Position numbers and translations under genes: made by a program. This document shows positions 697 to 38,490 of a DNA stretch of 64,000 bases, in pieces. The first letter of the stretch is position 1. The number at the start of each line of letters is the position of its first letter. The notes below the pieces were generated by a model. The model ran no database searches and was not told the DNA's origin. It was given only the letters and a program-made list of their open reading frames with translations. This DNA comes from Thermasporomyces composti (GTDB lineage: Bacteria; Actinomycetota; Actinomycetes; Propionibacteriales; Actinopolymorphaceae), in contig NZ_QTUC01000001.1 of the NCBI RefSeq assembly GCF_003386795.1, positions 1,240,001-1,304,000 on the forward strand. Direction: 5' to 3'.

Positions 697-2219
697 TGCC
701 CTTTCCTTCCCGACCTCTCCTGGCCCGACGTCTCCTGGACGATGCCAGTGTCCCTCGCCCCGTCCTCCGGCGGTCGCGCCTCCTCCGTCCCTTCGACCAG
801 GGCGCGACGAGCCGCCTCCGCCGACGGTGTGCCGGGGCGCTTGCGCTCGACCCATCCCTCGAGGTTGCGCTGGGGTGCGACGTTGATCGCCAACGCGCCC
901 GGAGGGACGTCCTTGCGGATCACGGTGCCGGCACCGCTGTAGGCGCCGTCACCAATGGTCACCGGCGCCACGTACATGTTGTCGGAGCCCATCCGGCAGT
1001 GCTTCCCGACCGTGGTCCGGTGCTTCTGCACTCCGTCGTAGTTGACGAAGACCGAGGCGGCGCCAATGTTGGTGCCTTCGCCGATCGTCGCGTCGCCGAC
1101 GTAGGACAGGTGCGGGACCTTCGCCGCCGGTCCGATGTCGGCGTTCTTCGTCTCGACGAACGTGCCGATCTTGCCGCCCGCACCGAGCCGGGTGCCGGGC
1201 CGGAGGTACGCGTAGGGCCCGACGGACGCACCGGGGCCGATCTCGGCCTGCGAGCCGTGTGTGCGGACGACGGTCGCCTCCGGACCCACCACCGTGTCGG
1301 TGAGGGTGGTGTCGGGCCCGATCTGGGCGCCGGCGGCCACGCGCGTCGCCCCATGGAGCTGGGTGTGGGGGTGCAGCACCACGTCCGGCTCGAGGGTGAC
1401 GGTCACGTCCACCCAGGTCGTGGCGGGGTCGACGATGGTGACGCCCGCACGCATCCAACGCTCGAGGACGCGGTCGTTGAGGATGCGCCGGAGCTCGGCC
1501 AACTGCACCTGGTCGTTGACGCCGAGGATGTCGCGGTAGTCGTCGGCCACGACGGCGGCGACGCGCTGTCCGTCGCCGTGGAGGATGCCAAGGACGTCGG
1601 TGAGGTACTCCTCGCCCTGGCTGTTGTCGGTCTTGAGCCGGGCCAACGCGCCGGCCAGCAGCTCGGCGTCGAACGCGTAGATCCCTGAGTTGATCTCGGT
1701 GATCTCGCGCTGCTCCGGCGTCGCGTCCCGGTGCTCGACGATGCTGGTGACCGAGCCGTCGGAGGCTCGGACCACCCGCCCGTAGCCGGTGGGGTCGGGC
1801 ACGATCGCCGACAGCACCGTCGCCGCCGCGTCCTCGCGGGCGTGGCCCTCGAGCAGGGCGGTCAGCGTCTCGGCGGGCAGCAACGGGACGTCGGCGTAGG
1901 TCACGACCACGGTGCCGCGCAGCGCTGGCAGAGCCTCCAGCGCGACGCGGACGGCGTGACCGGTACCACGTTGCTCCTCCTGGACGATCGGCTGCGCCTT
2001 CTCGTCCAGCTCGGCGAGGTGGGGAATCACCTGGTCCCGACCATGTCCCACGACCACCGCCAGATGCGTGGGCTGGAGCGCACGAGCGGTGGTGACGACG
2101 TGGCCGAGCAGGCTGAGCCCGCCGATCGTGTGGAGGAACTTGGGGGTACGGGACTTCATCCGGGTGCTCTTGCCAGCGGCGAGAACGATCACCGCCGCTG
2201 GACTGGTGGAGGCGTTCAC
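693..2219 (-). CDS. glmU: Bifunctional UDP-GlcNAc pyrophosphorylase / glucosamine-1-phosphate acetyltransferase
   Basis: Makes UDP-GlcNAc for peptidoglycan: acetylates GlcN-1-P (C-terminal domain), then uridylates it (N-terminal domain). The N-terminus holds the nucleotidyltransferase signature [18 protein letters not shown]. The C-terminal half is a left-handed beta-helix with hexapeptide repeats, the substrate segment [19 protein letters not shown] and the loop [15 protein letters not shown] chose GTG 2219 because GAGGAG sits 9 nt upstream and the protein then begins [18 protein letters not shown] at 508 aa, the usual length. Longer readings of the frame run antisense into otsB. The last roughly 40 residues are a low-complexity tail. 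The stop overlaps prs. Confidence 0.95.
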
Positions 2220-17209: not shown

Positions 17210-18295
17210 CTAGCCATCGCCGTCATGACCGTCGCCGTCATGACCGTCGCCGTCATGACCGTCGCCGTCATGACCCTTCTCACCACGGCCGTCTCCGTGC
17301 TCGCTGCTCCCGCCATGACCGGCCTCGCCGTGCTCACCGTCGTGGCGCGGTGTGGGATCGACGCGAACGGTGAACTCCGCCGTTCGGACCTCGCCGGCGT
17401 GCCGGAAGTCCAAGAACAGCCGGTACTCACCCGCGCTGGGTGGCGTGACGTCGAAGGTGATGTCAGGACCGGGCTTCGTCGTCCCGTCACCGGGCACGCC
17501 GCCCGGATGGACGTGCAGGTAGGCGAGGTCGCCGGCACGCAGGGCGACCAGGTGCCCGTACGCGCCCAGGTAGGGCTGCAGGTCGGTGACGGGCTCGCCG
17601 TCGCGGCTCACCGTCAGCGTGAGCCGCGACGGCTGGCCCGGCTTGAGCTCGCCGCGCAGGGTGACGGTGTAGTCGTCGACCCGCGCGGTCGTCGACGGAG
17701 CCGGCAGAGGCTGGGGCGTGTAGTCGCCCGCCACCGCGAGATCGGTGCCCAGCGTCAGGTTCTCGCCGCCTCGAGGCACGAAGTCGGCGAAGAGGCGCCA
17801 CTGACCCGGGCTGAGCGTGAGCGGTACCGACCAGGTGCCGTCCGGAGCCATCGCAGGATGGACGTGCTGGAACCCCGAGAGGTCACGCCGCACGGCGATG
17901 AGGTGGAGATCCTTCTCGTGGTTCTCCACGAAATCGGTGACCGCGCGCCCCACGGCGTCCCGGATGGTGAAGCGCACCGTCGGTCGACCCGCGGGCAGGA
18001 TGGAGTGCTCCACGTCGAGGGTGTAGCCCTGGTCGGATGCCAGGAGGCCACTCGGTCCGTGGGCCCCTCCGCTGGCCTCGTGCCCGACCGTGTCGTGGGA
18101 GTCGTGGGTGCCCGACCCATGGGCGTCGTGCGCGTCGGGCTGGTGGGCCTCCTGGTCGGTCCCCGCCTCGGAGCCGGCGTGCTCATCGGTGGGCCGGAGC
18201 TCGAGCGGTCCCACGAGGACACCGATGCCGAAGGCGGCGGCGAAGGCGGCCACGAGGACGGCGGCGAAGGCGGCGATCTTGACGGGTGTTCTCAT
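17210..18295 (-). CDS. Membrane-anchored or secreted His-rich copper-locus protein
   Basis: Probably an extracytoplasmic metal-handling protein. An N-terminal hydrophobic segment ([24 protein letters not shown], residues about 6-29) acts as signal anchor. A His/Asp-rich linker follows ([15 protein letters not shown]), then two beta-sandwich-like stretches holding [17 protein letters not shown] and [17 protein letters not shown], each with clustered His. A C-terminal tail is nearly pure His/Asp/Gly. Length is 361 aa. Proteins of this kind recur beside actinobacterial copA/copZ genes, but I know of no assigned biochemical role. It lies between copZ (84-nt gap) and copA (140-nt gap). Copper buffering or delivery outside the membrane is inferred from the His clusters and the locus. 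Confidence 0.8.
17216..17275 (-). repeat. 15-bp minisatellite coding the HDGDG tail
   Basis: Four tandem copies of GTCGCCGTCATGACC (plus strand; the first differs in one base) encode the repeated pentapeptide Gly-His-Asp-Gly-Asp at the C-terminus of the His-rich copper-locus protein. Copy number should vary between strains by slippage without breaking the frame. Confidence 0.9.
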
Positions 18296-35744: not shown

Positions 35745-35948
35745 TCAGCGCAGGTTGAACGTGCCCTTCTTCGCACCCTCGAGGAACGACGCCCACGCGC
35801 TGGCGCTGAAGACCAGGGCCGGGCCCTGAGGGTTCTTGGAGTCGCGCACCGCGAACGCCGAACCGAGGTCGGCGACCTCGACGCAGTTCTGGAAGCCAAC
35901 CGATGCGCTCGCCTTGCGCCACTGAGCGCGGTGGAGATCAGGTGTCAT
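35745..35948 (-). CDS. DUF397 protein
   Basis: A 67-aa protein: WRKASASVGFQNCVEVADLG, VRDSKNPQGPALVFSASAWASFLEG, the DUF397 pattern. Such proteins are almost always encoded just after an XRE regulator with a DUF5753-like C-terminus; some pairs act as WhiJ-like regulatory or toxin-antitoxin-like modules. Here the ATG overlaps the XRE stop by 11 nt. Confidence 0.93.
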   Translation of the reverse strand: MTPDLHRAQWRKASASVGFQNCVEVADLGSAFAVRDSKNPQGPALVFSASAWASFLEGAKKGTFNLR

Positions 35949-36819
35949 GTTCGCCTCCTTGTGTGGTGGCCATCTCCGACACGATGGCCAAGATCTTCTT
36001 CGCCGACTCCGCGGGGCTGAGGGCGATGGCGGCGATGTGTCCGAACGCCACGTTCGCTCGCTCCACGTCGGCGGATTTCTCGAGGTAGGTGATGCCGGCC
36101 TGCCCGTCGGTGTAGACCACCGGCGAGTGGACGTCCTCCTCGAAGTCGAAGATGGTGAACGGTCCGATGGTGCCGGGATAGCTTCCAGCGTTGAACGGCA
36201 CCACCTGCAAGATGCATCGCTCGCCGAGCTCCAGCAGTCGCATGAGCTGGCTGCGCATGACGTCCGGCTGCTTGCCGACCGGGCGGCGCAGCGCGGCCTC
36301 GTCGATGATCACCCAAAGTCGGCTGGGGTCGGTGTTGCCCTTCCAGAACGCCTCCTGACGAGCCAGCCGGATGGCCACGGCCCGCTCCTGCTCCGCCGGT
36401 GACGCGAAGGTGCACATGGCGTCGAGGGCACTCGCGTACTCCTCGGTCTGCAGCAGCCCGGGAATGATGAGCGGTTCGAACATCCGAATCCGCTGCGCCT
36501 CGGACTCCAAGGCGACGAAGACCGTATACGCCTTGGGCATGGAGCCGAGCGGCGCCCACCAGCCACGCTGCTTGCCGACCCGCTGGAGCTCCCGAAGCAG
36601 GTGCTTCATGTCGTCGGGGGCCTTGTAGAGGTCGAGCAAGACCTCGAGCTCGGCCTTGACGATGCCGACCTCGGCCGCCTCGATCTTGCGGATCTTCGAC
36701 TCAGAGCACCCCAGCCGCTCGGCCGCATCGGTGAACGTTCGCCCTGCCTGTTCGCGCAGCTGCTTGAGCTCCTTGCCCAGCCGCCAGCGGGCGATCGTCG
36801 GACCGCTCACTCTAGGCAT
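35938..36819 (-). CDS. XRE-family regulator with DUF5753-type C-terminal domain
   Basis: The N-terminal helix-turn-helix (RLGKELKQLREQAGRTFTDAAERLGCSESKIRKIEAAEVGI, about 14-53) is followed by a long sensor domain. Landmarks are YTVFVALESEAQRIRMFEPLIIPGLLQTEEYASAL, IIDEAALRRPVG and LQVVPFNAGSYPGTIGPFTIFDF. Length is 293 aa, standard for this WhiJ-like class. It is coupled to the following DUF397 gene. A GTCTGGC/GCCAGAC palindrome lies 31 nt upstream of its ATG and could be its own operator. Confidence 0.92.
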   Translation of the reverse strand: MPRVSGPTIARWRLGKELKQLREQAGRTFTDAAERLGCSESKIRKIEAAEVGIVKAELEVLLDLYKAPDDMKHLLRELQRVGKQRGWWAPLGSMPKAYTVFVALESEAQRIRMFEPLIIPGLLQTEEYASALDAMCTFASPAEQERAVAIRLARQEAFWKGNTDPSRLWVIIDEAALRRPVGKQPDVMRSQLMRLLELGERCILQVVPFNAGSYPGTIGPFTIFDFEEDVHSPVVYTDGQAGITYLEKSADVERANVAFGHIAAIALSPAESAKKILAIVSEMATTQGGEHDT

Positions 36820-36849
36820 CCGAACCTCCCCGATGCGTAACTACGCCCA

Positions 36850-36871
36850 GTCTGGCCCTTTTGTGCCAGAC
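36850..36871. promoter_or_regulatory. Palindrome upstream of the XRE gene
   Basis: GTCTGGC-N8-GCCAGAC, perfect 7-bp arms. Further CCAGAC/GTCTGG half sites follow near 36900-36915. Its position in the XRE divergent promoter suggests an XRE operator. Confidence 0.6.
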
Positions 36872-37003
36872 GTGGCAAGCGTTTTCGCCCTACCCAATCG
36901 GGTCAGACCAGACTGAAGATCACTATCAGGGAGGACCGGTTGGGATCACGAAAATTTACATTGGAAGAGATACTTGACCTTACGTGGCGATCCTGTCACT
37001 CTA

Positions 37004-37065
37004 GGAGTCCCTACGGGCCGTCGTAGACCCCGGCCCATTCCCTGCGCGGCGGCCCGTAGGACTCC
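37004..37065 (+). promoter_or_regulatory. Long leader hairpin with competing internal pairing
   Basis: The arms GGAGTCCCTACGGGCCG (37004-37020) and CGGCCCGTAGGACTCC (37050-37065) pair over 16 bp with one bulged C and a 29-nt loop. Inside the loop CGGCCC (37031-37036) can instead pair with GGGCCG (37015-37020), so the left arm has two exclusive partners. It lies 55 nt before the ATG of the 86-aa gene at 37121 and looks like a regulatory leader or attenuator. It matches no riboswitch class I recognise. Confidence 0.6.
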
Positions 37066-37086
37066 AATCTCACTGGAGGCCACCCA

Positions 37087-37102
37087 ACAGGAGGCGTCCT
37101 GT
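37087..37102 (+). promoter_or_regulatory. Second leader hairpin
   Basis: ACAGGA-GGCG-TCCTGT forms a perfect 6-bp stem-tetraloop. It holds an AGGAGG-like sequence in its 5' arm and loop, 18 nt before the ATG at 37121. The functional ribosome site is probably GGAGGG at 37111, just after the hairpin. Confidence 0.5.
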
Positions 37103-37120
37103 GTCTCGACGGAGGGTTCT

Positions 37121-37381
37121 ATGCCCGTCGCCACGTCAGCCATGCCGTGCCGGTTTCAGCTCTATCGACACCGTGATGTGAGCGGGGTATCGGGAACAGG
37201 CGTGGTGGCCTGGGGCACGGTGTATCCCAACGGGAAAGTGAGCCTCGTCTGGTGCGGTCCACGTCCGTCGGTGAACGTGTACGAGTCCCTCGCTGACGTG
37301 ACCGCCATCCATGGCCACGACGGCTCGACCCAGATCATCATGTACGACGAGCTTCCTGACTCCGCGGCCGTGGGCTGGTGA
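37121..37381 (+). CDS. Small conserved-type hypothetical protein
   Basis: 86 aa: CRFQLYRHRDVSGVSGTGVVAWGTVYPNGKVSLVWCGPRPSVNVYESLADVTAIHGHDGSTQIIMYDELPD. It reads as a compact all-beta domain of a type common in actinomycetes (VSGVSGTGVVAWG...G.V.L.W....PS...), with no known function. GGAGGG is 4 nt before the ATG. It is divergent from the XRE/DUF397 pair and has an unusually structured 5' leader. Confidence 0.75.
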   Translation: MPVATSAMPCRFQLYRHRDVSGVSGTGVVAWGTVYPNGKVSLVWCGPRPSVNVYESLADVTAIHGHDGSTQIIMYDELPDSAAVGW

Positions 37382-37473
37382 GCCTCTCCCACCTCGGCAC
37401 TGAACGCGCTCCCGCGCCGTCACCGTGTCCACCCGTACCAGCTCGGGCGTGCCCGCCAGACCACAAGCTGGCG

Positions 37474-38490
37474 TCACGCCAGTCCGGCTTCGGAAAGCAC
37501 GAGGTCGACCAGCGCGTTCGGGTCCGCGACATCAACCGACAGCCCACGTGCGGTAAACCATTCACAGATCCGGCGCGCGTCCCGCTCGAGGAACGGGCGT
37601 CCCTGCGGGTTGACGGCCAGGTCGACGAGCTGCGGCACGTCGATGAACACGAGGTCATCGCCGTCGGCCAACACGTTGTACGCCGACAAGTCCCCGTGGG
37701 TGTAGCCGAGCCGCCCCATCGCCACCATGGCGGCCCGCATCACCTCCCACCAGTGACGCAGCTGGCCAGGTTCGGGGCGAAGCTGCGCCAGCCGGGGAGC
37801 CGGTGTCCCGTCCTCGTCACCGATGAACTCCATCAACACCTCGGTTCCCAGGCACTGCACCGGATACGGGACAGGGACGCCGGCCGACCAGAGGTGGCAC
37901 AGCGCGGCGAACTCCGCGGTCGACCACTGCTGGGCGATGAGGTTGCGACCGAAGTTGGTGCGGCGGTCGATCGCCCGTTGGTCCCGCACTCGTCGCAGTC
38001 GCCGCCCCTCCAGGTAGCTGGCGTCACGGTGGAAGAGCCGGTGGTCGGCTCCCCGATAGCGTTTGGACGCCAACAAGCAACGCCGGTCAGAGCCGGGAAC
38101 ACCCCGTTCGAGTAGGTGGACGTCGGCTTCCTTGCCCGTCTTGAGCACGCCGAGGTCGGTGTCAACGGCGGCGAGCTCGGTGACCAACCATTCCGGATAC
38201 GGCTCGGGGCCACGAGAGCCGTCATCCCACGTCGACCACCGAATCCCCGCCGGCGGCGCGTCGGCGGTCGCAGCGGCCTCGCGCTCCCGGGCGAGGCGCG
38301 CCCGCTGCTCCTCGGTCAGCCGCCCACGCGTGCCAGGAGACGGCTCGTTGTCGGCGCGACGGCGCCGCATCCGCACCGTCGTCGGCAGGTCGGCATCGAC
38401 GTCGGCGAAAGGATCGATGTCCCCGTCGCTTTCCCACCACGACGCGACTCGCGGGCGGTAACGGCGAGGAAAAGAACTGCGCTCACGCAT
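37474..38490 (-). CDS. RIO-family serine protein kinase
   Basis: Bacterial RIO1-like kinase. An Arg/Glu-rich head of about 110 aa precedes the kinase core: VLKTGKEADVHLLERG (glycine-loop region), LASKRYRG with the ATP-anchoring Lys, HGDLSAYNVL (catalytic loop, Asp267) and FIDVPQLV (metal-binding Asp). Length is 338 aa. ATG 38490 has GAAGGAG 6 nt upstream, and this ribosome site is partly locked in a hairpin. Substrate unknown. It is the gene just before the ispE-glmU synteny break. Confidence 0.88.
   Translation of the reverse strand: MRERSSFPRRYRPRVASWWESDGDIDPFADVDADLPTTVRMRRRRADNEPSPGTRGRLTEEQRARLAREREAAATADAPPAGIRWSTWDDGSRGPEPYPEWLVTELAAVDTDLGVLKTGKEADVHLLERGVPGSDRRCLLASKRYRGADHRLFHRDASYLEGRRLRRVRDQRAIDRRTNFGRNLIAQQWSTAEFAALCHLWSAGVPVPYPVQCLGTEVLMEFIGDEDGTPAPRLAQLRPEPGQLRHWWEVMRAAMVAMGRLGYTHGDLSAYNVLADGDDLVFIDVPQLVDLAVNPQGRPFLERDARRICEWFTARGLSVDVADPNALVDLVLSEAGLA

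Follow-up and report, generated by a model that had tools for sequence, protein, structure and literature searches.

In actinomycetes, development and antibiotic control are linked to loci of the WhiJ/BldB type, at which post-transcriptional control appears little studied. In Streptomyces venezuelae, activation of iosA at the iosA-whiJ9-bldB9 locus requires WhiJ9, which binds intergenic direct repeats (PMC10294661). Stem-loops at the 5′ terminus control the decay of bacterial mRNAs, and E. coli and B. subtilis offer established cases of protection by such structures (PMC3997798). In Streptomyces, conserved and highly expressed stem-loop sRNAs with C-rich loops have been described (PMC3765725), and 3′ ends at stems without a U-tract form a described class in S. 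clavuligerus (PMC8269248).

The locus analyzed here lies in a 64,000-nucleotide stretch (the window) of a 4.37-Mb single-contig genome, whose family is apparently Actinopolymorphaceae, as judged from kinship and named Actinopolymorpha contigs. The gene order is enolase-like gene, DUF397, XRE, leader, 86-aa gene (gene86), RIO-like kinase, ispE and ksgA. The locus has in common with iosA-whiJ9-bldB9 a WhiJ-type XRE gene, an adjoining DUF397 gene, a small-protein gene divergent from the XRE gene and conserved intergenic blocks. The likeness is one of locus layout, and no kinship of gene86 to IosA or AbaA is claimed. The divergent XRE/DUF397 regulator pair of the initial annotation was confirmed by Pfam, with HTH_31 and DUF5753 in one protein and DUF397 in the other (Table 1); the XRE protein scores 224 bits against the NCBIfam Sco1979-like model, under its cut-off of 350. 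The XRE-DUF5753 gene with its adjoining DUF397 gene fits a WhiJ/BldB-type locus, which is kept in synteny in all eight family genomes examined; ispE and ksgA were not detected in the stretch examined of the most diverged genome (G001). In oriented alignments, four intergenic blocks are conserved: besides the promoter and the hairpin, these are an AT-rich block and a block adjoining the XRE start. Inside the XRE gene, in antisense orientation, positions 36630-36729 (+) weakly match the Saccharopolyspora antisense RNA Sernc350 in Rfam (25.3 bits, E 4e-4, gathering score 50), which probably reflects shared XRE coding sequence.

Table 1. Features of the gene86 locus, with window coordinates.
Feature	Coordinates	Strand	Basis or remark
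DUF397 (BldB/Scr2-type) small protein, overlaps XRE gene	35745-35948	-	Pfam DUF397 E 2e-21
WhiJ-type regulator (XRE HTH_31 + DUF5753), divergent from gene86	35938-36819	-	Pfam E 1.6e-15 and 9.3e-52
AT-rich block GAAAATTTACATTGGAAG, candidate activator (WhiJ-type) or UP-element site	36950-36967	+	Conservation; putative function
Promoter: -35 TTGACC (36974-36979), 17-nt spacer, TGT + -10 CACTCT (36997-37002)	36974-37002	+	Conserved
Leader hairpin, 5′ arm	37004-37023	+	Compensation at three pairs in G001; the outermost bases possibly belong to promoter DNA and not to the RNA
Weak alternative hairpin GGGCCG/CGGCCC (37015-37020/37031-37036), possible co-transcriptional intermediate	37015-37036	+	Pairing in sequence
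23-nt C-rich loop TAGACCCCGGCCCATTCCCTGCG	37024-37046	+	Identical in 8/8 genomes, including G001 with its diverged outer stem
Leader hairpin, 3′ arm	37047-37065	+	Pairs with 37004-37023
Second hairpin ACAGGA-GGCG-TCCTGT (37087-37092/37097-37102)	37087-37102	+	Not conserved, outside the element
Ribosome-binding site GGAGGG, SD-like, 4 nt before start codon	37111-37116	+	Sequence
gene86 (86-aa ORF)	37121-37381	+	ORF call; orthologue in 8/8 family genomes

The long stem reported in the initial annotation was found as described. GGAGTCC-(C)-TACGGGCCG (37004-37020) pairs with CGGCCCGTA-GGACTCC (37050-37065) in a stem of 7 + 9 base pairs with one bulged C. An inward extension (TCG/CGG) brings the stem to 19 pairs, one of them G-U, around the 23-nt loop, in which 11 residues are C. 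The 65-mer that spans the leader has a minimum free energy of -39.3 kcal/mol (z -5.3 against dinucleotide shuffles, none of 200 being as stable). Because at least 14 other window/strand places fold more stably in this GC-rich window, the leader is not exceptional by stability alone; conservation and covariation, not stability, mark it out from the rest of the window. On either strand, the window reaches its greatest 65-nt fold stability at 17597-17634, where a predicted 361-aa CDS on the minus strand contains a very tight inverted repeat with a short loop and a stem of at least 14 bp.

The leader hairpin is present in all eight family genomes, always ∼34-55 nt upstream of the gene86 orthologue and directly behind the conserved promoter. 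Positions 37004-37066 are 98-100% identical between this genome and six Actinopolymorpha relatives. Across the same relatives, identity is 24-33% in the 54-nt spacer behind the hairpin and 49-58% at the third codon positions of gene86. The hairpin was the top-scoring 62-mer of the 14-kb neighbourhood, coding genes included, in the four Actinopolymorpha comparisons run. Conservation comprises the promoter and the hairpin and ends at 37066. In G001, the 39-nt core formed by the loop and inner stem is identical except for one T/C difference. Three adjacent pairs are changed on both sides in this genome, from A-U/C-G/G-C to G-C/G-C/A-U, and three outer stem pairs are broken. The alignment including G001 has 96.1% of its cells paired, and the number of pairs changed on both sides dropped to zero when it was slid as a control. 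The covariation comes from one diverged genome, in which changes at matching positions to complementary letters would arise by chance on the order of 1 in 10,000, by a rough estimate. The initial annotation had named a lack of covariation among homologous leaders as a reason to abandon a structured leader; three compensations on both sides were found instead. The comparison of sequences establishes a conserved element abutting the promoter and associated with gene86, with a selected, base-paired stem and a bias for the sense strand.

TTGAC and CTGTCACT of the promoter region are invariant in all eight genomes, and the promoter site was not reported by a sigma-70 consensus scan, CACTCT lying under the scan cut-off. 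Upstream of it, positions 36950-36970 are 86-90% identical in the six relatives and 67% identical in G001, and positions 36900-36949 are 36-52% identical. As WhiJ9 binds intergenic direct repeats, candidate WhiJ-type sites here are, by analogy, the blocks conserved ahead of the promoter. Intergenic inverted repeats (GCCAGA...) are observed at 36845-36915 near the XRE promoter, roughly where several Actinopolymorpha genomes carry the GTGGCAAGTACTTATGCCAC repeat, and are a candidate operator for autoregulation of the XRE gene.

Transcription is predicted from the promoter position to start at ∼37006-37009, and the loss of three outer pairs in G001 fits a start inside the outer 5′ arm, as this position predicts. 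Because only ∼34-55 nt separate the hairpin from the ATG and this gap nearly always includes a ribosome site (near the start codon in seven of the eight genomes, as GGAGGG or, with an inserted A, GGAAGGG), no separate downstream promoter fits, and the hairpin should therefore reside in the 5′ UTR of gene86. A start downstream of 37065, the other objection that had been foreseen, is not supported, the sole conserved promoter pointing to 37006-37009. Three genomes have a T-G pair that can wobble in the sense strand but is a mismatch in the antisense strand, and the fold z is -2.9 for sense vs -0.7 for antisense. We regard the leader with high confidence as a selected RNA element of the sense strand. 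A coding or leader-peptide reading was rejected, since variation in the hairpin does not favor third positions and the spacers of different genomes do not differ in length by multiples of 3.

Relatives of the leader were sought outside the family. At the gathering threshold, Rfam matched nothing in three loci of the family, and at E up to 5 it matched nothing over the leader in the window. Scans of ∼590 other actinomycete genomes with covariance model R1 returned only weak, chance-level matches, the best alignments being loose stem fits. No convincing relatives thus emerged from these ∼590 genomes, and within the reach of these searches the element is confined to the family. No orthologous leader was found outside the family, although homologues of gene86 itself are present in Kribbella and numerous phages. 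The loop pattern, with one mismatch allowed, has three matches in 394 other genomes; they were rejected as leader relatives, two being without structure and the third (G376, L108) folding like shuffles (z -0.6). A repeat or mobile element was likewise rejected, the hairpin being single-copy in the genome, syntenic in eight genomes and without a match to plasmid, phage or viral DNA. The leader is very probably an undescribed, lineage-specific RNA element that is absent from Rfam, in the shape of a simple hairpin of a familiar kind.

Hairpins were also observed in another of the genera searched (g5), which is probably Kribbella. In locus L083, a hairpin at 1501-1563 (-), flanked by a DUF397 gene and a homologue of gene86, scores 27.9 bits to the leader model (z -5.6). 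Its loop, CCCCGCCCTTCTCCTGCG, resembles CCCCGGCCCATTCCCTGCG of the present leader loop, which may be chance, and its DNA has no orthologue in 37 other Kribbella genomes. Moreover, long hairpins lie ∼45 nt before the DUF397 start at L083:1380-1460 (-) and L030:1160-1245 (-), both XRE/gene86-homologue/DUF397 loci. These two share a 3′ arm, GCGGG(A/G)ACGGCGTAC(A)GGGCC, and a pair that is U-A in one and C-G in the other is changed on both sides; of 38 genomes in this genus, just these 2 contain the pattern. They are similar to the present leader in geometry and unrelated in sequence.

The ORF downstream of the leader was confirmed, and the initial description of its 86-aa product as a protein of unknown function stands; it has no Pfam or NCBIfam match. 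The protein matches phrog_7499 (E 1.7e-24), and its compact family carries the motif DxSGVSGTGVVA...HGHxGxT. Members are found in Streptomyces phages, the Haloarcula viruses SH1, PH1 and HHIV-2, Kribbella-like genomes and many viral contigs, as well as on Nocardia, Bacillus and Deinococcus plasmids and among chromosomal genes, with several copies per genome in g5. AlphaFold2 models the protein as a small beta-rich domain (mean pLDDT 86.8). A Foldseek search returned nothing at E <= 0.001, and no solved structures related to the protein by sequence were found. Kinship to a known fold was rejected as too weak, with a best VIA-align Z of 5.2 and Z of 3.6-4.8 for YkuJ and HipS/HipA domains.

The reading that we favor, with a probability of roughly 0.55, is that the element is a 5′-terminal stem-loop in which a trans-acting factor docks on the invariant C-rich loop and so acts on the gene86 mRNA. 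The conserved promoter would start transcription at or within the 5′ arm, and the gene86 message would begin with a long stem-loop presenting the invariant 23-nt loop. A trans-acting partner would then recognize the loop and inner stem; candidates are an RNA-binding protein, possibly the gene86 product, or an RNA that pairs with the C-rich loop. Binding of the partner may set the decay, stability or translation of the mRNA, and this control would supplement transcriptional regulation by the divergent WhiJ-type XRE/DUF397 pair. Among the options first put forward for the leader, binding of a protein, here widened to a protein or an RNA, is the best that remains.

As the main rival reading, transcription may often end at the hairpin, which would release a ∼60-nt sRNA whose C-rich loop pairs in trans with G-rich ribosome sites, with read-through serving gene86. 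The conservation of precisely the promoter and hairpin up to 37066 and the 11 C residues in the 23-nt loop fit such an RNA, as do the C-rich-loop sRNAs of Streptomyces (PMC3765725) and the U-tract-less 3′ ends of S. clavuligerus (PMC8269248). This explanation is nevertheless unlikely, given the lack of a U-tract or terminator-like site, the strict linkage to gene86 in all eight genomes and the absence of an Rfam match (E up to 5) to C-rich-loop RNAs such as 6C.

It is less probable that the arms act in DNA, as half-sites at the gene86 start site for a DNA-binding protein such as the divergent XRE regulator. The site is at the start of a promoter that diverges from a regulator gene, covariation would also be expected of symmetric half-sites if the specificity of the protein changed, and WhiJ9 itself works from an intergenic region between divergent genes (PMC10294661). 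Arms of 16-19 bp that stand 23 nt apart and contain a one-base bulge are, however, a poor site for a dimer; the best-conserved part is the loop, and the wobble pair fits RNA. WhiJ9, moreover, binds direct repeats rather than a dyad, and the conserved upstream blocks are better operator candidates. A passive role, in which the stem alone matters and shields the 5′ end from decay enzymes, is similarly improbable. It agrees with the position of the hairpin at the predicted 5′ end, with the compensated stem and with the protection established in E. coli and B. subtilis (PMC3997798), but leaves the invariant 23-nt loop and inner stem unexplained.

The initial annotation had emphasized two exclusive pairings and a second hairpin, in a layout suggestive of an attenuator or riboswitch. 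GGGCCG can pair with CGGCCC in sequence, but this alternative is ∼25-30 kcal/mol weaker than the main fold (-7.6 to -7.9 kcal/mol for its 5-bp core vs -35 to -40) and does not covary. It is the predicted fold only at an RNA length of ∼35-47 nt (G000). GGCCG/CGGCC is kept in all eight genomes; the sixth alternative pair is lost in G001, where alignment position 16 changes with the long stem and not with the loop. The second hairpin is present in the sequence, but its 3′ arm falls within ∼17 nt absent from seven relatives, and the hairpin is not part of the element because it lies partly within this insertion unique to the genome. No terminator-like site or U-tract was found in 36700-37500, and hence no U-tract terminator with a competing antiterminator. 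No conserved fold, alternative or otherwise, was found to mask the ribosome site, which lies outside any conserved fold and is not consistently occluded, and pairing of the loop with this site is no better than in shuffles in seven of the eight genomes. A metabolite-sensing riboswitch or transcription attenuator that works through the two pairings could draw on the retained GGCCG/CGGCC, its predicted co-transcriptional formation and the invariant loop, but is the least probable explanation in view of the weak alternative fold, the missing terminator, a ribosome site that is not consistently occluded and a single hairpin with no second conserved domain and no Rfam match at gathering.

The docking-site reading also has a bolder form, which we consider improbable: the virus-shared gene86 protein would bind the C-rich-loop leader of its own message, making a post-transcriptional autoregulatory switch within a WhiJ/BldB locus, and hairpin leaders in Kribbella loci of this type, parallel in structure but unrelated in sequence, would then be a recurrent feature of the module. 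What is new here is a leader RNA at a WhiJ/BldB-type locus, with an invariant loop whose limits are sharp. It gives a handle on a function-unassigned protein family common to phages, haloarchaeal viruses and actinomycetes.

Compared with known systems, the gene86 leader resembles the papA and aprE leaders and the rne leader bound by RNase E in placing a stem-loop at the mRNA 5′ end, here a predicted one, of a leadered message (PMC3997798). It differs from them in its invariant 23-nt loop, its restriction to one lineage and its predicted start site. A stable stem and a C-rich terminal loop are shared with the actinomycete RNAs scr5583 and scr1434 (PMC3765725) and 6C RNA; unlike these, the gene86 leader stands directly before a gene and shares its promoter, and has no Rfam match. 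XRE-DUF397 pairs of the Scr1-Scr2 type (PMC6262351, PMC10364602) are of the same kind as the neighbouring regulator pair, but the present leader belongs to the gene divergent from such a pair; neither hairpins nor untranslated regions turned up in a word search of PMC10364602. In contrast to the iosA message, which is reported to be leaderless (PMC10294661), gene86 has a conserved hairpin leader and a ribosome site.
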